A model generated the notes under the pieces. The model saw only the letters and a program-made list of their open reading frames with translations. It had not been told where the DNA came from and made no database searches. A stretch of 64,000 nucleotides of DNA from Bacteroidales bacterium (GTDB lineage: Bacteria; Bacteroidota; Bacteroidia; Bacteroidales; P3), in the NCBI GenBank assembly GCA_017439185.1, contig JAFRTM010000023.1:1-64000 (forward strand), given 5' to 3'. A program made the position numbers and the translations under genes. Positions 3,007 through 62,266 of this stretch are shown here, in pieces (the stretch's first letter is position 1; every line of letters starts with the position of its first letter).

Positions 3007-3474
3007 TTACCTCTTGATAACTTTGAAGTTCATCTCACAACCCTTCGTGTCAACGAACTGCACGCGATACTCGCCAGGTTGGAAGCTCTTCATGTCAATG
3101 ATCTGAGTGTTGCTCTTCACAGGATTCTTGCTGATGGCCATGTCTTTAACGTCATAGACTACATAGCTGCCTTTGAAAGTGCTCTTGTAAGAAGTCGAGA
3201 TAATAGCTTTCAGCTGATCGTTGTTAGCATAGACGAGCTTAATCTTAGCATCTGTGATTCCTTTGGTGTCCGTGGTCATTTCTTTCACAGTGTAAGTGTA
3301 GCCCTTAGCGTCTTTGTTAATCTGATTGTCTTTCACAACAGATTTTCTGTCATTCTGATTGACGGTCTTGCTGTTGGTGTTGATTCTCTGAGGATTTGCG
3401 CTCTTCTGAATCTGGGCGAAAGCCATCGAGCCACAAAGGACTACTGCTGCTGCAAGGGTTAAAATCTTTTTCAT
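3007..3474 (-). CDS. small secreted protein, paralogue of the 2475-2927 gene
   Basis: This 155-residue protein has the signal peptide MKKILTLAAAVVLCGSMAFA, an Asn/Lys-rich linker and a C-terminal beta-sandwich-like domain with SFQPGEYRVQF, closing on FKVIKR. It shares its architecture and many residues with its 80-bp-distant neighbour. The two may be co-transcribed, although an AT-rich gap separates them. The function is unknown. DUF3244 is the closest family by appearance, as a guess only. Confidence 0.75.
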   Translation of the reverse strand: MKKILTLAAAVVLCGSMAFAQIQKSANPQRINTNSKTVNQNDRKSVVKDNQINKDAKGYTYTVKEMTTDTKGITDAKIKLVYANNDQLKAIISTSYKSTFKGSYVVYDVKDMAISKNPVKSNTQIIDMKSFQPGEYRVQFVDTKGCEMNFKVIKR

Positions 3475-3776: not shown

Positions 3777-3855
3777 AACGTTATCGAAAAGCGAGAGCAA
3801 TGGAAGCTTGCTTACATTGCCGAGCCAAGATAACGTCTTGCTCGCAAGAGCAAAA
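3777..3855 (+). repeat. three-stem structured repeat, copy 1
   Basis: An outer stem pairs ACGTTATC (3778-3785) with GATAACGT (3829-3836). It encloses an inner hairpin GCAATGgAAGC/GCTTaCATTGC (3797-3820). A third hairpin TTGCTC-GCAA-GAGCAA follows (3838-3853). The constant words GAAAAGCGAGA and CGAGCC flank the inner hairpin. A second copy at 56695-56768 keeps the words and every stem while changing the paired bases on both sides, which argues that the structure is selected. The function is unknown: a small RNA, a REP-like element or a processing site are all possible. The bases from 3856 to 4000 are AT-rich with short TTAACCAA repeats. Confidence 0.7.
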
Positions 3856-4000: not shown

Positions 4001-5146
4001 ATGAATATGTACGACAACATTCCCATAGCCCTCCAAGCATACGTCGAGCGATACATCCTTCCTCGCTACTCCAATTTCGACCCCGCCCACCGACAGCCCC
4101 ACATCCGCGCCGTCATCGACGAAAGCCTCCACCTCGCCGCACTCAACCACGCCGACCCCTTCCTCGCCTACACCATTGCCGCCTACCACGACCTCGGACT
4201 CGTCGAAGGACGCGAGCGACACCACCTCGTATCCGCTCAGATACTCCTCGCCGACACCACCCTCAGAAACTGGTTCTCCCCTCAGCAGATAGCCCTCATG
4301 GCCCAAGCCATCGAAGACCACCGCGCCTCCTCCTCCCACGAACCCCGCAGCCTCTACGGCAAAATCGTAGCCGAAGCCGACCGCCAAATCGAACCCACCG
4401 ACATCGTCCGCCGCACCATCCAATACGGTCTCGCCCACTACCCACAACTACCACTCGAAGGCCACTGGCAGCGCACACTCGACCACCTCCACGAAAAATA
4501 CGGCCGCCAAGGCTACCTCAAACTCTGGTTTCCCCAGTCCCGCAACGCCACAGGACTCGAAAACCTCCGCCTCCTCATCGACAACACCCCTCGCCTACGC
4601 CACCTCTTCCTCCGCCTCTACAACCTCGAAACCTCCACCGTCACCCCCGCCACCAAAGACGACCTCGACGGCATAATGCAACTTATCGAAAACTCACGGC
4701 AGATAATGCGCCGCAGCGGCAACCACAGCCAATGGGTCAACGGCTACCCCTCTCCCCAAACCATCCTCGACGACATCGCGCGCGAACAATATTATATAAT
4801 AAGACAACACTCACGACTCGTCGGCTCCTTCGCCTTCATCCGCGGCGAAGAGCCCACCTACAAAGAAATCCACGGCGGCAGCTGGTCCGACCCCGACCAA
4901 CCCTACGCCACCATCCACCGCCTCGCCTCCGCCCCCTCCGTAAGCGGCATCGGCAACCTCTGTCTCGACTGGTGCAAACAACAGATCAGCCACCTCCGGG
5001 CCGACACCCACGAAGACAACCCCATCGTACGCCACATCCTCGAACACAACGGCTTCACCTACCGCGGCACCATCCACCTCGCCGACGGCTCGCCCCGCCG
5101 AGCATACCAATGGTCCTCCGCCGACGACGAGCAAAATCCTGCCTAA
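4001..5146 (+). CDS. HD-domain / GNAT acetyltransferase fusion protein
   Basis: This 381-residue protein joins two enzymatic domains. Residues 1 to about 150 look like an HD-superfamily metal-dependent phosphohydrolase (spaced His residues, YHDLGL, EDHR, EADRQIEP). Residues from about 213 to the end look like a GNAT N-acetyltransferase (AREQYYII, LVGSFAFIRG, ATIHRLASAP, a SVSGIGNLCL cofactor-loop equivalent, and the ILEHNGFTYRGT C-terminal strand). No signal peptide is present, so it is probably cytoplasmic. The substrate is not predictable. Codons end in C to an extreme degree, unlike the G-rich gene at 8361. ATG codons at 4001 and 4007 are both usable. Confidence 0.8.
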   Translation: MNMYDNIPIALQAYVERYILPRYSNFDPAHRQPHIRAVIDESLHLAALNHADPFLAYTIAAYHDLGLVEGRERHHLVSAQILLADTTLRNWFSPQQIALMAQAIEDHRASSSHEPRSLYGKIVAEADRQIEPTDIVRRTIQYGLAHYPQLPLEGHWQRTLDHLHEKYGRQGYLKLWFPQSRNATGLENLRLLIDNTPRLRHLFLRLYNLETSTVTPATKDDLDGIMQLIENSRQIMRRSGNHSQWVNGYPSPQTILDDIAREQYYIIRQHSRLVGSFAFIRGEEPTYKEIHGGSWSDPDQPYATIHRLASAPSVSGIGNLCLDWCKQQISHLRADTHEDNPIVRHILEHNGFTYRGTIHLADGSPRRAYQWSSADDEQNPA

Positions 5147-9828: not shown

Positions 9829-9928
9829 GTTGGATATTGATAAGTTAAATGTTGATATGTTGATAAGTTGATATGTTTTAAGTTTTGAGTTATAAGTTAT
9901 AAGTTCTAAGTTTTGAGTAATTGTAGGT
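9829..9928 (+). repeat. octamer/heptamer intergenic array and shared leader
   Basis: GTTGATAN-type octamers (9836-9882) pass into TAAGTTY heptamers. The array ends in GTTCTAAGTTTTGAGTAATT plus GTAGGT (9903-9928), which recurs exactly, in the same orientation to the next gene, upstream of dnaJ (29484-29509, minus). The following bases up to the aldo/keto reductase also resemble the dnaJ leader. Confidence 0.7.
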
Positions 9929-11816: not shown

Positions 11817-12566
11817 ATGACTTTTTGGGAACATCTCGACGAGTTGCGCGGGTGCATATTGAAGGTGGTGATAGCCGCCCTTATAGGCACCGTGGTGGCG
11901 TTCTTTTTCAAGGATGCGCTGTTCTATGCCGTGTTGGCTCCCAAGGGCGAGGATTTCGTCACCTACCGCCTCTTCGACGCCATCTCCAAGCACCACAGCA
12001 GTTTCTACGTGGAACTCATCAACGTGGAACTCACGCAACAGTTCATGACCCACGTGAAGGTGGCTTTGTGGGCGGGCTTGCTGCTTGTGTCGCCCTACGT
12101 GATTTATGTGCTGTTCGGCTTTGTGGCGCCTGCGCTCTACAAGAACGAGCGGCGCTATGCGGTGAGGGCGGTGGCAGGGGGCTACGTGATGTTCCTCGTG
12201 GGCGTGGCGGTGAACTATTTCCTGCTCTTCCCGCTGACGTTCCGCTTCCTCGGCAACTACCAAGTGAGCGACGAGGTGACGAACATGATTTCGCTGACGT
12301 CGTACATCAACATACTGCTGCTGATGAGCCTCGTGATGGGCGTGCTGTTCGAGTTGCCCGTCGTGAGTTGGATATTGGCGAAGGTGGGCATCCTGCGAGC
12401 CGAGCCTATGGCGAAATACAGGAAGCACGCCATCGTGGCGATACTGATATTGGCGGCGATAATAACCCCCACGGGCGACGTGGTGACCCTCTCGGTGGTG
12501 GCGCTGCCCATCTACCTGCTCTACGAGGCAAGCATCCTGATAGTGAGGTGGAGTTATAAGGCTTGA
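11817..12566 (+). CDS. tatC: Sec-independent translocase receptor TatC
   Basis: This is a 249-residue, six-helix membrane protein. Signature segments are MTFWEHLDELRGC (conserved F-x-H-L-x-E-L-R), SPYVIYVLFGFVAPALYKNER and FELPVVSWILAKVGI. The conserved Glu in FELP is present. TatC binds the twin-arginine signal and recruits TatA. It ends the operon. No TatB is visible, as expected for a TatAC system in this phylum. Confidence 0.95.
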   Translation: MTFWEHLDELRGCILKVVIAALIGTVVAFFFKDALFYAVLAPKGEDFVTYRLFDAISKHHSSFYVELINVELTQQFMTHVKVALWAGLLLVSPYVIYVLFGFVAPALYKNERRYAVRAVAGGYVMFLVGVAVNYFLLFPLTFRFLGNYQVSDEVTNMISLTSYINILLLMSLVMGVLFELPVVSWILAKVGILRAEPMAKYRKHAIVAILILAAIITPTGDVVTLSVVALPIYLLYEASILIVRWSYKA

Positions 12567-12750
12567 GCTCTAAGTTCTAAGTTCTAAGTTTTAAGTTCTA
12601 AGTCAACCTATCAACTTTCAACATATCCACTTATCCACATTCAACATATCCACTTATCCACATTCAACATATCAACTTTCAACATATCCACTTATCCACA
12701 TTCAACCTATCAACATTTAACTTATCAACATTCAACCTATCAACATTCAA
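12567..12750 (+). repeat. heptamer then octamer array with three DnaA-box matches
   Basis: About five TAAGTTC heptamers are followed by 8-bp units of the form NTATCMAC mixed with CTTTCAAC and CATTCAAC. The perfect word TTATCCACA occurs at 12631-12639, 12654-12662 and 12692-12700. No gene is present. The array lies between tatC and the adenine deaminase gene and ends two bases before its ATG. Confidence 0.8.
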
Positions 12751-14432: not shown

Positions 14433-15037
14433 AGAAACTGATACTAATCATATTGTTGTCTATGGCTTTTGTCTCTCAAGCCCTTGCACAGGACGATTGC
14501 CGCAAGGCTTTGCAGCGCTACATGAAGACCTATCCCGCCTCCGACCTCTGCGACGTCTACAAGTTCTGTTTCCAAGACGTCTTCGGTCCCGAGCACCTGA
14601 CCCTCGACAGCGCCAAGGCGGCTGCCTACCTGCAGGGCGAGTTGGAGAAGTACTCCACCCTCGGCGGACCCGACTACGAGCCCACGGGCTGCTCGGGCAA
14701 CTACGTCCGTGTCAACCTGCGCCTCGTGCGTCAGGGCAAGATAACCGCCGAACACCTCCTCGACTGCCTCCTGCGCAGCGCCCAAGGCAACACCCCCGTG
14801 GACCTCGACGAGTGGCGCTACCGTTGGAGCGAGATAGAGACCCTGCTCAGCGCCATGGAGCCCCGTCCCAACCACTTTGCCCTCGACTCCGACTCCATAG
14901 AGAAACTCCTCGCACGCGGCGGCTACGTCGTCCACCACTCCTACCCCTACAACTCCACCTACAACTTCCACTACCGCCTCATCAGGCGCGACATCTTCGA
15001 GCAAGAAATCCTTCCAAAATTGAAAATTGAAAATTGA
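14429..15037 (+). CDS. secreted protein of unknown function
   Basis: This 202-residue protein has a signal peptide (MKKLILIILLSMAFVSQALA) and a mature region with paired cysteines (DDCRKAL, SDLCDVYKFCFQDVFGPEHL). It ends in a Tyr-rich stretch (HHSYPYNSTYNFHYRLI). It overlaps the adenine deaminase stop by four bases (ATGA), so translation is coupled. I cannot name the family. Its periplasmic location and operon partner give no clear role. Confidence 0.75.
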   Translation: MKKLILIILLSMAFVSQALAQDDCRKALQRYMKTYPASDLCDVYKFCFQDVFGPEHLTLDSAKAAAYLQGELEKYSTLGGPDYEPTGCSGNYVRVNLRLVRQGKITAEHLLDCLLRSAQGNTPVDLDEWRYRWSEIETLLSAMEPRPNHFALDSDSIEKLLARGGYVVHHSYPYNSTYNFHYRLIRRDIFEQEILPKLKIEN

Positions 15038-15054
15038 AAGCCGAAACCTTATTT

Positions 15055-19094: not shown

Positions 19095-19101
19095 CTATTG
19101 T

Positions 19102-19136
19102 CTAATCACTAATCACTAATCACTAATCACTATTCA
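19102..19136 (+). repeat. CTAATCA heptamer microsatellite
   Basis: Four perfect CTAATCA units and a fifth diverged unit stand in tandem between the terminator and the lipoprotein promoter. No gene is present. Confidence 0.85.
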
Positions 19137-19236
19137 CGATAAAAAACTTGCCAATTAAAAAAAAACTTCGTATATTTTTTTCTGACGGAAAGAAGATACT
19201 TTGTTTCGGGAATCCAAGAAAAAAATTACATTTTTT

Positions 19237-21254: not shown

Positions 21255-21256
21255 CG

Positions 21257-21439
21257 GGATGTTGATATGTTGATATGTTGATATGTTTAATGTTGATAGG
21301 TTGATAGGTTGATATGTTGATAAGTTGATATGTTGATATGTTTAATGTTGATAGGTTGATAGGTTGATAGGTTGATAGGTTGATAGGTTGATATGTTGAT
21401 AGGTTGATAGGTTGATAAGTTGATAAGTTAAATGTTGAT
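21257..21439 (+). repeat. GTTGATAN octamer array
   Basis: About twenty 8-bp units GTTGATAT, GTTGATAG and GTTGATAA, broken by GTTTAAT or GTTAAAT, fill the whole gap between lipoprotein paralogues 2 and 3. No gene is present. The orientation is opposite to the arrays at 12.6 and 15.1 kb. Confidence 0.85.
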
Positions 21440-55274: not shown

Positions 55275-56690
55275 ATGCAGCGCTTCCTAATCTTCATCGT
55301 AACACTATTGCTCACAGTCCAGCTGTGTGCCCAGACCCTTACCCTCGATTCCTGCCGAGCCTATGCCCTGAAGAACCAGGCAACCCTCGCCAACGCACGC
55401 CTCGAGCTGCAGTCGGCCAAGGAGACCAAGCGAGCCACCTTTACAAAATATTTCCCCTCGCTCAGTCTCGCCGCTGCCTATTTTCATTCTCGCGACTACC
55501 TCATCGACGTCTCTTCCCAGTCGTCGGGAGCACAAATCGATGCGACAGTGTCATTCGACGGACAAACCATAGACAGCCGAATCTCCAATCTGCAGGCACG
55601 ACTGGATCAAGCAGGAATTGATTTCAACATCCGGTCGGAGATAGACAACTTCATGGACCGCATCTCGGTCGATGCCACCCTGAAGATGCTCGACCACGGT
55701 TTTTTCGCCAACGCGCTGCTCACCCAGCCCATCTTCGCCGGCGGACGTATCGTCAACGGCAACCGGCTGGCGCAACTCGGGGTAGACGTCGCCGAGCTCA
55801 AGCTCCTTATGCGCGAAGACGAGGTGCTGCTCAATGTCGAGCAGTATTACTGGCAAGCCCTCGCCCTGCGGCTGAAAACCGAGACCCTGTCCCAAGCCCT
55901 ATGTCTCCTCGACACCCTCGAGCGCGACGCCTCCACCGGCGTCCAGGCAGGAGTGATAGCCAAAGGAGACCTTCTGAAGGTACGCCTACGCCACAACGAA
56001 CTGCAAGCCGACAGCAACCGGCTGCAGAACGGCTACCGGCTGGCCATGCGCGCCCTTTGCCAATACATAGGAATAGAGTACAACCCATCATATACTCTTG
56101 ACACATCCACCCTTTCGCTATTGACATTGGAGCCGTTGTCCGAAGCCGACACCTCTGTCTCCAACCGTATGGAGTATCGCCTCCTGCAGAAAGCCGAGGA
56201 GGCCGAGCGGCTGCAAACCAAGATACTTGTGGGCGAGTCGCTGCCCCAACTCGCCGTAGGTGCCACCTATGGTGCCAACAACATAGTGGGCGACATCAAG
56301 CACAACGGCATCCTCTTCGCCACCCTTTCCATCCCCCTCTCCGCCTGGTGGGAGACCGGCCACAATATCAAGAAACAGCGAATAGCGCAGCAGATAGCCG
56401 CCAACAACCGCAACAATAACGCCCAGCTGATGCAGCTCCAGCAGCAGCAGTCCTTCGACGAGTTGCAACACGCCTGCCGCCTCCTCCCCCTCCGCCGGCA
56501 GGCCGTCTCCGACGCCGAGGAGAACCTCCAGGAGACCCGCAACTACTACGACGCCGGCCTTGCCCCAGTCAGCGACCTTCTGCAAGCCGAGAGTCTTCTT
56601 TCGCAGGCCCGCAACCAGCTTGCAGACCAACTCATAGACTGCAAAATCAAAGAACTCACCTACCGCCAGCAGACCACCGCCCGCCGGTAA
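55275..56690 (+). CDS. TolC-family outer-membrane channel
   Basis: This 471-residue outer-membrane factor has a signal peptide (FLIFIVTLLLTVQLCA) and two long coiled-coil repeats typical of TolC (LDSCRAYALKNQATLANARL in the first, MEYRLLQKAEEAERLQ and ETRNYYDAGLAPVSDLLQAE in the second). ATG at 55275, 11 bases after the pump gene, is the natural start; the frame extends upstream into the pump gene without meaning. It completes the efflux system. Confidence 0.93.
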   Translation: MQRFLIFIVTLLLTVQLCAQTLTLDSCRAYALKNQATLANARLELQSAKETKRATFTKYFPSLSLAAAYFHSRDYLIDVSSQSSGAQIDATVSFDGQTIDSRISNLQARLDQAGIDFNIRSEIDNFMDRISVDATLKMLDHGFFANALLTQPIFAGGRIVNGNRLAQLGVDVAELKLLMREDEVLLNVEQYYWQALALRLKTETLSQALCLLDTLERDASTGVQAGVIAKGDLLKVRLRHNELQADSNRLQNGYRLAMRALCQYIGIEYNPSYTLDTSTLSLLTLEPLSEADTSVSNRMEYRLLQKAEEAERLQTKILVGESLPQLAVGATYGANNIVGDIKHNGILFATLSIPLSAWWETGHNIKKQRIAQQIAANNRNNNAQLMQLQQQQSFDELQHACRLLPLRRQAVSDAEENLQETRNYYDAGLAPVSDLLQAESLLSQARNQLADQLIDCKIKELTYRQQTTARR

Positions 56691-56694
56691 TTCC

Positions 56695-56768
56695 AACGTT
56701 TCCGAAAAGCGAGAACAGAAGAACTTGTTCTTATGTCGAGCCGAGGAAACGTCTTTTGCGCAGCAAAA
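56695..56768 (+). repeat. three-stem structured repeat, copy 2
   Basis: The outer stem is ACGTTTCC (56696-56703) with GGAAACGT (56745-56752). The inner hairpin is ACAgAAGAAC-TT-GTTCTTaTGT (56715-56736). The third hairpin is TTTTGC-GCA-GCAAAA (56754-56768). The constant words CGAAAAGCGAGA and CGAGCC match copy 1 (3777-3855), and the g/a mismatch of the inner stem is kept. It lies five bases after the tolC-like stop. Confidence 0.7.
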
Positions 56769-56863: not shown

Positions 56864-59302
56864 TCACTTGAGCTTAACCAACGTTATGCCGTCGCCGCCC
56901 AGCTCTATATGTTCCGAGCCGAACCATTCCACATTCCTGTCGGCTTTGAGATAGTCGCGAATCATAGTTTTCAGTATACCGAAGCCTTTGCCGTGCAAGA
57001 TTTTCAGGTCCCGCTCGCCCAGCAGCTGAGCCTCGTCGAGGAAACGGGTCAGTTCCGCCAACGCCTCCTCCCCTCTCATTCCACGCACATCGAGAGTCGG
57101 GTTGAAGTATTTGCGTTTCTCGTTGATTTCGTCGTATATCGACTGGAACCGGCTGTTCTTGCGGCTCGTCCGGTCCGCCGGTATCGTCTTCTTCTTGCTC
57201 TTCGTCAGGCGGTTTATGGCTATAGTCATCCTCACCGAGTTGCTCTCCACCACCGCTTTCTTGCCCTGCAGGGCCACCACCTGTCCGTATGTCTGTTCCC
57301 CGTCCACCATCACTATGTCGCCCACCTCTATCGGTCCTTCGGCCACCTCCTCCTTCGGTTCCTCCGCCGGTGCCGGCGTGGCCGACCGCTTCCGCCGTTC
57401 CTTGTGGGCAGCCGTCTCCCTCTGCTGTTCTTCCGCCAACGATTCACCCTTCTGCCGTAGACGTTCGCGAGCCTGCTGAGTACGTTCCTTCTCAGCCTGA
57501 GCCGATTTTATGTCGCTTATAGTCTGTTCGACAGCCCTATTGGCATCGGCTACAATCTCTTTTGCCTCGGTGCGGGCCTTGCTCAGAATCTCGTATTTTC
57601 GCGATTCCAGGTTGTCGCTAAGCCTACGGTATTTCTCCACCACCTCGTTGAGCAGCCGGTCCATCTGTTCCAGTTCCGCCTCTTTCTCGGCAAGAGTCCG
57701 TTTTTCCACCTCCAGCTGCTGCACCTGCTGTTCGAAGTTCAGCATCTCACGTCCCGCACGTTCGGCAGCATTGTCGAGGATTTCCTGCGGGAGACCGATA
57801 TTTGTGGCTATCTCGAAAGCGAACGAGCTGCCTGCGTGGCCTATGGCAAGACGGTAAAGCGGTCTCAGGTTCTCGCTGTCGAAGAGCATAGCCCCGTTGA
57901 CAATCCCCTCGTGGCGGTCGGCCATCAGCTTGAGGTCGGCAAAATGGGTAGTCACCACCCCGTAAGCACCTCTCTCGTACAGCTCCTCGAGCACAGCCTC
58001 GGCTATGGCGCATCCCGAACGGGGCTCGGTGCCGCCACCCAGCTCGTCGAGCAGGAACAGAGTCTTGTCGTCAGCGTCGGCCAACAGCTCTTTCATATTC
58101 TGCAGGTGCGACGAATAGGTGCTCAAGTCGCTCTCTATCGACTGCTGGTCTCCGATGTCGATAAACTCCTTGTCGAAGATGCCGAACTCCGACGTCTCGC
58201 GGCAGGGGACGAGCAGTCCGCACTGCATCATATATTGTATCAGACCTATAGCTTTCAAGCACACCGACTTGCCTCCTGCGTTAGGTCCCGAGATGATAAG
58301 AATGCGGTGTTCCCGGTCCATCGTCAAGTCGAACGGCACCACCTCCTTGCCTTCCCTTTGGTGGAACAGCAGCGGATGACGGGCTTCCAGCCATCCGAAC
58401 ATCTGGCGGTCGTTGACCACCGGCATTCCGGCCTTCAGCTCTATCGCCAGCTTAGCTTTAGCCCTGACAAAGTCAATACGGGCAAGCACCCAGTAAGCGT
58501 TTACGAATATGTCTATCGCCGGACGTATCGAGTCGCTTATTCTCAGCAGTATCTTCTGTATCTCATGTTTCTCGGCGAATTCCAGTTCCCTCAAGTCGTT
58601 GTTGAGTTCCACCACCTCGGCAGGTTCGAGGTAAGCCGTCTGGCGTGTCGCCGACTCGTCGTGTATGAGTCCTTTCATCTTGCGGCGGTGGGTGTCGAGC
58701 ATCGGAATCACCATGCGGCCGTTGCGTATGGTCACCTCGCCGTTCTCCGGAGCCCATCCCTCACGCTTGGCTTTCGCCAGCGATCGGCTTATCTGGCTGT
58801 CCACCTCGCCCCTCTTGCGGAAGAGTTCACGCCGTATGTCACGCAAAGTCTCAGTTGCATCGTCGTATATCTCCCCCTTGTCGTCGATGGTCTTGTCTAT
58901 CAGGCGTATTATCTGCCTGTCTATCTCTATATGGCTTGCCAGTTCCGCCAGCTCGGGATTTTTCGCCGCCCGTTCCTCGTCGGCGAAATAGTGCATACAG
59001 GCCTCTATGGTGTGGAGCGACACTTTCATATCGAACAGTTCCGCCTGTTCCATCCTTGTGTTGCCCACCCTCAGGTGCTGCAGCATCGGCGTCATGTCTA
59101 TGAAGTCCTGCGCCGGGAAGCTGTTGTCCATAAGCATTATCTGGCGCATCTCCTCCACCTGCCTGAGGCTGCGGACGATTCGGTCGTATCGCGTCTCGAA
59201 AACCATATCCCTGGCCATCTGTGCCGCCAGCTCGTTGGTACAGAATTCCAGGACCATCTCCCTTATCTTGTCGAAACCTATCTTTGCTTCTATGTTGTTC
59301 AC
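56864..59302 (-). CDS. mutS2: endonuclease MutS2
   Basis: This 812-residue MutS-like ATPase starts with GTG in the expected place (NNIEAKIGFDKIREMVLEF). It has the core helical lever region and an ABC-type ATPase with ISGPNAGGKSVCLKAIGLIQ and LFLLDELGGGTEPRSG. A long coiled-coil region follows. The C-terminal Smr nuclease domain reads LDVRGMRGEEALAEL and ILHGKGFGILK. It limits recombination or rescues collided ribosomes in other bacteria. Family length is normal. Confidence 0.95.
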   Translation of the reverse strand: MNNIEAKIGFDKIREMVLEFCTNELAAQMARDMVFETRYDRIVRSLRQVEEMRQIMLMDNSFPAQDFIDMTPMLQHLRVGNTRMEQAELFDMKVSLHTIEACMHYFADEERAAKNPELAELASHIEIDRQIIRLIDKTIDDKGEIYDDATETLRDIRRELFRKRGEVDSQISRSLAKAKREGWAPENGEVTIRNGRMVIPMLDTHRRKMKGLIHDESATRQTAYLEPAEVVELNNDLRELEFAEKHEIQKILLRISDSIRPAIDIFVNAYWVLARIDFVRAKAKLAIELKAGMPVVNDRQMFGWLEARHPLLFHQREGKEVVPFDLTMDREHRILIISGPNAGGKSVCLKAIGLIQYMMQCGLLVPCRETSEFGIFDKEFIDIGDQQSIESDLSTYSSHLQNMKELLADADDKTLFLLDELGGGTEPRSGCAIAEAVLEELYERGAYGVVTTHFADLKLMADRHEGIVNGAMLFDSENLRPLYRLAIGHAGSSFAFEIATNIGLPQEILDNAAERAGREMLNFEQQVQQLEVEKRTLAEKEAELEQMDRLLNEVVEKYRRLSDNLESRKYEILSKARTEAKEIVADANRAVEQTISDIKSAQAEKERTQQARERLRQKGESLAEEQQRETAAHKERRKRSATPAPAEEPKEEVAEGPIEVGDIVMVDGEQTYGQVVALQGKKAVVESNSVRMTIAINRLTKSKKKTIPADRTSRKNSRFQSIYDEINEKRKYFNPTLDVRGMRGEEALAELTRFLDEAQLLGERDLKILHGKGFGILKTMIRDYLKADRNVEWFGSEHIELGGDGITLVKLK

Positions 59303-61721: not shown

Positions 61722-62266
61722 CTCATATATAAGTACGACGATGGGTAATTCTAAATCGCTATTTGGAGGTTAAAATGGGGGATTTTAGGATTTTTTAACT
61801 TTTTTATTAGTGGTCAGTAGCCAATACTCAGTGGGCAGTTTCTCAATAAGTTATCCTATGCTTATTGTACACACATTGCACTCACATAGCACACACATTT
61901 TGCTTTGCAAGATGTGTGGCGTCGTTCGGCAATGAAAGTGCACTTACATAGCACTCTCATTGCACTCACATAGCACACACATTCGGGAATTCTCTTGGTT
62001 TTGTCTTACTGGGGAGCACTTATATTCTACTTTGGCTCGGTTGTAACCCGTGACTGTGGCGTGGGATAGGTGGGATAGATTTTATAGAACATTTAGATTC
62101 GATAGAGGCTATAAAATTGGATGGGGAAATAGGTCAATACGATTGTTGAAAAATATTTTTTACAGCTAGCAAATATTTGTATGTCAACTTATTAAAGAGA
62201 GATATTTTGTTCTTTATGATGTAAAAGTGCGATTTAAAACGAGGGTCTGTCGTACTTATATATGAG
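61722..62266. repeat. 18-bp inverted repeats bounding 545 bp
   Basis: CTCATATATAAGTACGAC at 61722-61739 and its exact reverse complement at 62249-62266 bound a segment without an open frame. This suits a MITE-like or decayed insertion. No flanking target duplication is evident. Confidence 0.55.
61874..61983 (+). repeat. 26-bp direct repeat pair
   Basis: Two identical 26-base copies begin CATTGCACTCACATAGCACA (61874-61899 and 61958-61983), 84 bases apart. Related words (CACTTACATAGCACTCTC) lie between them, so this is a short degenerate array. Confidence 0.7.

Follow-up and report, generated by a model that had tools for sequence, protein, structure and literature searches.

A short repeat that stands twice between genes in the DNA of a Bacteroidales bacterium, with stems whose letters differ in a paired way, raises the question of what kind of structure is being kept: a small RNA, a processing site, or a REP-like element with a dedicated transposase, as an earlier note had proposed. 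That note placed the copies at 3777..3855 and 56695-56768 of the window (the whole stretch analysed, 64 kb long), and the coordinates of all stems were retraced there. Both copies are intergenic, 73-78 bp long and on the + strand. Copy 1 (3778..3855, +) consists of an outer stem, a core hairpin and a third hairpin, scored 92.1 bits (E 8.4e-19) when the window was searched with the covariance model (R1), and lies in a 526-bp gap between genes at 3007-3474 (− strand) and 4001-5146 (+ strand). Copy 2 (56696..56768, +; 79.6 bits, E 6.3e-16 in the window search) starts 5 bp past the stop of the gene at 55275-56690 (+), with a convergent gene at 56864-59257 (−) ahead. A weaker third copy was found on the − strand at 61909..61971, with a different outer stem (ATGTG / CACAT) and flanked left and right by a direct repeat of 12 bp, AATGTGTGTGCT; it scored 32.2 bits (E 5.8e-5 within the window), and its genome-wide E value of 0.0019 places it outside the 47 genome matches described below. 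The window itself begins within a 16S rRNA gene (1-216, −), the 16S match being truncated at its 3' end.

Read on the + strand from the outside inward, the element is made of an 8-bp outer stem, an internal loop of 5 nt on one side and 3 nt on the other, GCGAG facing CGAGC, and an inner hairpin. In copy 1 the arms of the outer stem are ACGTTATC (3778..3785, +) and GATAACGT (3829..3836, +), and the core (3791-3825, +) comprises a 5' arm GCGAG (3791..3795, +), a bulged A (3796, +), the inner hairpin GCAATGgAAGC tt GCTTaCATTGC (3797..3820, +) and a 3' arm CGAGC (3821..3825, +). The small third hairpin follows directly 3' of the outer stem in both copies; in copy 1 it is TTGCTC gcaa GAGCAA (3838..3853, +; arms 3838-3843/3848-3853). 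The corresponding parts of copy 2, all on the + strand, are the outer stem at 56696-56703/56745-56752, the core at 56709-56741 and the third hairpin at 56754-56759/56763-56768. The paired changes between the two copies that had been quoted in the earlier note are real, for example TTGCTC/GAGCAA against TTTTGC/GCAAAA in the third hairpin. Its stems stand, but GCGAG and CGAGC, which it had counted among the constant single-strand words, are not loop words: they pair with each other, and form a tandem G.A/A.G step (G3793 A3794 and G3822 A3823 in copy 1) beside the bulged A. Fold prediction works for both strands. On the + strand the predicted fold had z values of −4.6 as RNA and −4.0 as DNA for copy 1, and −1.6 and −3.0 for copy 2; on the complementary strand the values were −3.7 and −2.7 for copy 1 and −2.3 and −2.1 for copy 2, respectively. 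By these predictions copy 2 by itself is unconvincing as RNA.

The genome that holds the window (2.15 Mb in 28 contigs, 92% complete) gave 21 blastn matches to the repeat, and a covariance model built from 18 copies found 47 matches at E<=1e-3 and 58 at E<=1, some of the latter being fragments of one place. Forty-nine own copies were kept for the counts below, namely these 47 and two weaker ones; two other weak matches and fragments of places already counted were excluded. In the 18 clean copies 95.3% of the paired cells pair and double changes occur in 10 of 21 pairs, with 42 double-change cells compared to 13.4 in shuffles (0 of 500 shuffles reached 42); pairing drops to 33-47% when the partner is slid by 1-3 columns. 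Further pair types showed no excess in these 18 copies (16 compared to 17.1 shuffled). A wider alignment (A4) took 135 matches, from own and related genomes, out of 100 sources chosen to avoid duplicates, and yielded 117 distinct copies. There the share of paired cells that do pair is 94.8%, two-sided changes are seen in 19 of 20 pairs, double-change cells number 434 compared to 119.7 in shuffles, further pair types 56 compared to 41.6, and at most 47% of cells pair after a slide of 1-3 columns. Since the A4 copies are related and were aligned by fitting to the model, cells are not independent events, and the weight is placed on effect size, with no p value. These findings bear out the claim of a selected nucleic-acid structure, and the further copies and covarying pairs that the earlier note had proposed to look for are present; its observation was right and understated.

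The tandem G.A of the core is almost fixed. Among the 117 copies the G and the A of the 5' arm are kept in 113 and 115, those of the 3' arm in 108 and 114, respectively, and the bulged position is an A in 89. The g/a mismatch of the inner hairpin, said in the earlier note to be kept in both copies, is indeed present in both window copies and common elsewhere, but it is not fixed, and two loci (L014 and L025) are fully paired there. The third hairpin lies outside the covariance model and was scored separately: a hairpin of at least 4 bp was present in the match end plus the next 40 nt in 45 of 49 own copies, compared to 40% of shuffled sequences. It begins directly after the outer stem in 29 of the 49, these abutting hairpins having 4-7 bp and diverse stem sequences. 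The outer stem ends in CGTC in 30 of the 49 own copies and lacks it in 19; the CGT lies within the stem and covaries with its partner, ATGTC, GGGTC, GGAGTC and CACATC being found in its place.

The family is widespread in the order. In a draw of genomes from the order the element occurred in 22 of 149 genomes and 20 of 133 genera, the own genome included, and in a draw of 148 genomes from the phylum the own genome alone matched, the 20 others listed being of the same class; both draws applied a cut-off of E<=1e-4 and stringent filtering, at the cost of weak copies. Within the genus 19 of 25 genomes matched and six did not, with 0 to 54 matches per genome. An exact pattern search of a collection of named genomes gave at least 127 matches, at least 54 of them with a well-paired inner stem, in at least 49 loci. 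Among the matches listed, the carriers were mostly from animal guts by record titles, and the well-paired loci comprised 45 labelled Bacteroidota, two Fibrobacter (L052, L059), one Kaiserbacteria (L105) and one Mesorhizobium (L068). The last, which is GC-rich, was taken as a chance match; the Fibrobacter and Kaiserbacteria loci look real and hint at a wider occurrence.

Recent spread was found in at least one relative, G008. Seven of the nine copies read there are 95-100% identical over 77 nt, with four variable columns, and the likeness stops at the edges of the element. Each of the seven sits within a heptamer array of its own, whose word is identical or almost so to the left and right of the element and keeps its phase across it, and the words vary between most sites (AACTCTT, AACCTTG, AACCTAT, AACTCAT and others); when the flanks were joined, the 7-bp period held at 25-34 of 35 positions. 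Near-identical copies in different arrays show spread of the element in trans. At these copies the in-phase direct repeats of 7 bp may come from arrays that pre-exist. Heptamer arrays occur also in G007 (79% complete), where the model had no match, so that arrays are likelier a target or tolerated place than a product of the element, and duplications of 0 and 7 bp look alike at such sites. At one G008 site none of nine orthologous loci in relatives matched the model, and the G008 control did; the gap there is 13-40 nt in most of the loci listed, and two of the relatives (G012, G014) have other heptamer arrays. At a second G008 site the matches to relatives broke at the gap. For copy 2 of the window, none of 19 relatives' loci in which the downstream gene could be aligned matched the model and the own-locus control did, but the other neighbour differs, so this comparison shows little. 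A clean before-and-after site with a defined target duplication was not found among the sites compared.

Strong direct repeats stand on both sides of 16 of 43 named-genome copies; the rate was 5.6% in mismatched pairs and 6.6% in random windows, the latter being mostly coding; the other 27 of 43 have no strong flanking repeat. The 43 loci, one copy each, are nearly all from Bacteroidales and include the two Fibrobacter loci; L068 and copies near contig ends were dropped, and several loci share one genome. Four loci of the collection (L067, L108, L132, L134) are probably the same DNA as in G003, G008, G014 and G086, so that the sets partly overlap. The effect is smaller in the own genome, where strong flanking repeats were found at 22% of copies and, among 705 control windows from intergenic DNA, at 7% (p 5e-4). 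Tandem arrays of 7- and 8-bp words lie in the window at 21256-21431, 9847-9912, 12566-12597, 15015-15040 and 19101-19137, and among 33 arrays in a genome sample of 464 kb, periods of 7, 8 and 11 were the commonest (8, 6 and 7 arrays, respectively). In G012 (L384) and G008 (L298), heptamer arrays face each other as inverted repeats about a short central stretch.

Copies also occur within one another and within other elements. Eight of the own matches lie within a further copy, near one and the same position in its core, and tandem arrays of the element with periods of 67-92 bp were seen in several genomes. In G003 the module lies within larger inverted-repeat elements and is present, absent or inverted among their copies; G021 and G017 hold it in a second kind of larger inverted-repeat carrier. 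The presence of the element inside these carriers indicates that hitchhiking accounts for part of the spread. The G003 carriers (L273-L292) are MITE-like: their ends, GGTAACCTCTAA...TTAGAGGTTACC, are inverted, and some copies are flanked by what look like target repeats of 4 bp (TAAA, TTGA); in the G021 carrier (L309, L310), CCCAAATCGGTCATTAGG and CCTAATGACCGATTTGGG stand around the copies of L310.

A dedicated Y1 transposase was considered as the mover and the link was not supported: the Y1 profile (PF01797) had no match in the own genome and the element was absent within about 1.5 kb of the Y1 genes at all 42 Y1 loci searched (30 of them one per genome and 12 more, some overlapping). The survey behind these loci found a Y1 match in 30 of 41 genomes. 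Among 12 element-bearing genomes outside the genus, chosen by hand from the 21 other matching genomes of the order draw, four had a Y1 match; G086, 99% complete and with 26 element matches, had none. The part of the earlier note's proposal that concerned a REP-like element is upheld for dispersal and recent spread; its dedicated transposase was not found in these searches. Six Y1 loci of the genus were searched for repeats. Five (L247, L248, L250, L253, L254) carry their own tandem hairpin arrays with a period of about 50-58 bp, mostly CCCCTACGGGG-like palindromes, and the sixth (L249) has another palindrome; the hairpin arrays are a separate REP family. An all-against-all BLASTP comparison of 821 neighbouring ORFs of at least 80 aa revealed no gene that recurs widely, the largest cluster (8 loci) looking like a translated carrier element and the rest spanning at most 5 loci. 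Phages and plasmids gave no blastn match at E<=0.01, and among viral contigs the pattern occurred in 20 loci, only one of them (L348) with a well-paired stem. Neither the Y1 profile nor the recurrent-neighbour comparison identified a moving enzyme.

Whether the structure works as RNA or as DNA bears on the first of the rival explanations, a structured RNA, either a small RNA family or an mRNA processing or 3'-end element. It would fit the predicted RNA fold of copy 1, the strong covariation in 117 copies and those loops of the third hairpin, in a mixed set, that are GNRA tetraloops and suit RNA also. Selection as RNA would, however, be expected to raise G.U above A.C. The 117 copies have 2036 Watson-Crick, 37 G.T and 28 A.C pairs among 2187 cells, so covariation is nearly pure Watson-Crick and G.U, at 1.7%, is not clearly above A.C. 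In contrast, the acceptor and T stems of 32 distinct tRNAs from own, same-order and Bacteroidales-labelled loci gave 353, 25 and 2 of 384 cells, respectively (Fisher p 1.4e-6 for the G.T share and 6e-4 for G.T:A.C; this set supersedes a wider one, partly from other phyla, with 352/26/2). tRNAs are a demanding control and the element's pairs are not independent; the contrast is still clear. The copies also lack a preference for the sense strand: 47 of the 49 own copies lie outside called genes (by a simple ORF caller, nested copies included), and of 32 that could be scored on both sides, tandem gaps hold 14 antisense (--) and 8 sense (++) copies, convergent gaps (+-) 7 and divergent ones (-+) 3. 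Tandem arrays and nesting of copies speak against an RNA as well. The element (window and 19 loci) did not reach an Rfam 15 gathering score, a further search giving only GcvB with 10.5 bits and E 3.8; an Acido-Lenti-1 RNA match of 48.1 bits was seen at 2387-2432 of locus L042, about 0.8 kb from an element copy. We read the element as a DNA-level hairpin, not a small RNA, and regard the small RNA or processing site of the earlier note as quite unlikely. Paired changes could also be mutational, with imperfect palindromes templating their own repair and the structure unselected, which would likewise yield Watson-Crick changes only. Mismatches should be lost under drift or such repair. Each of the four positions of the tandem G.A, however, is unchanged in 108-115 of the 117 copies, and we hold this explanation to be highly improbable.

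With a DNA hairpin as the preferred reading, two further rivals concern its role. It might be a host site, a protein-bound or replication-related hairpin (for nucleoid, primosome, topology or promoter) spread by conversion, which agrees with a conserved core and variable stems. CAAAnnTA, which we take to be the reverse of the Bacteroidetes −7 promoter box, abuts 14 of the 23 copies taken as the 5'-most of their array in G086, G200, G146 and G139 (L400-L419), compared to a background of 2.2% of windows and 0 of 49 own copies; this adjacency, which would suit a host site, may reflect either insertion beside promoters or a portable promoter. A host site is nevertheless hard to reconcile with so patchy an occurrence, in 22 of 149 genomes of the order and with six of 25 same-genus genomes lacking a match and 0-54 matches per genome, or with the lack of a replication-strand rule: a hand tally of own copies in stretches whose GC skew reaches 0.05 or more had 15 of 20 following one strand, and the trend was not repeated in 46 other loci (24 to 22). 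We consider a host site unlikely, if still credible. The element could instead be the REP of a Y1 (RAYT) transposase that was lost from the genome or is missing from an assembly that is 92% complete, and its size, intergenic dispersal and arrays fit such an origin. Against it stand the 42 Y1 loci without the element, the genus Y1 loci with repeats of their own, the element-rich and nearly complete G086, and a GT[AG]G foot absent in all 49 copies, and it is judged very unlikely.

No description of the family was found in the openly licensed literature searched, in agreement with the earlier note, and the element was compared with known systems. REP and REPIN sequences with RAYT (TnpA-REP) are likewise short, palindromic, intergenic, multicopy, found in arrays, gene-free and recently spread in trans; in contrast to them the element has no GT[AG]G foot and no RAYT link in the loci searched, and is a two-part structure with a tandem G.A and free stem sequence. 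MITEs are also non-autonomous and intergenic, and the element occurs inside MITE-like carriers (G003, G021/G017), but apart from the hairpin arms the element itself showed no terminal inverted repeat, and no fixed duplication was seen. Integron attC sites act in single-stranded, folded form, with a bulge that is conserved and a stem that varies. The element too would be a folded strand with conserved bulge and variable stem, but the RYYYAAC...GTTRRRY pair is present in 0 of 49 own copies, and copies are scattered or in tandem with no gene cassettes between them where read. CGTC-tagged REPs are described as having no known dedicated transposase, an unpaired terminal CGTC, a stem of 8-9 bp, a loop of 4-5 nt and a CCA tail (PMC3733652). 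The element resembles them in having no known dedicated transposase and in the CGTC at the outer-stem end of many own copies, and differs in that its CGT is paired in the outer stem and is preceded by a large second structure, and in that the hairpins abutting the outer stem have 4-7 bp. The element is kept apart from the REP/RAYT and CGTC families because their defining features were looked for and are lacking. Heptamer arrays of the TAACTGA type occur in intergenic DNA (PMC4679880); many element copies have broadly similar intergenic heptamer arrays around them, but with other words, and such arrays occur also without the element, as in G007.

We favour, with moderate confidence, a family of mobile DNA elements of REP-like type, about 75-80 bp long and devoid of genes, that would work as a folded single DNA strand and be spread in trans by some enzyme that is not the Y1 REP transposase. 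The folded strand, with outer stem, bulged core hairpin and small hairpin after it, would probably be the + strand shown here, because the kept G.A step reads C.T on the other strand; the predicted folding of the complementary strand too is a point against a single + strand working form. A tandem G.A step pairs well in DNA when GA follows a pyrimidine and precedes a purine. Stem letters would drift freely while pairing holds, and the bulge and G.A step would stay, probably as what a protein reads. The element would be moved to intergenic sites, often short tandem repeat arrays. A stronger version, in which it belongs to a class of mobile single-strand DNA hairpins that a non-Y1 enzyme reads through the bulge and tandem G.A and inserts in phase into heptamer arrays, the folded shape alone counting, is tentative and rather doubtful.

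REP-like repeats with no known transposase are an open question, stated as such for the CGTC REPs in PMC3733652. The present family has a strong structural signature that is open to test. Its copies are almost identical in one relative, and some genomes rich in the element gave no match to the usual enzyme, so that its mover can be sought. Counts of G.T against A.C with a tRNA control can separate DNA from RNA hairpins, and DNA hairpins of this kind are a trap for RNA-family discovery. The element behaves like a REP, and what the locus holds is a real, orphan family of REP-like DNA hairpins.
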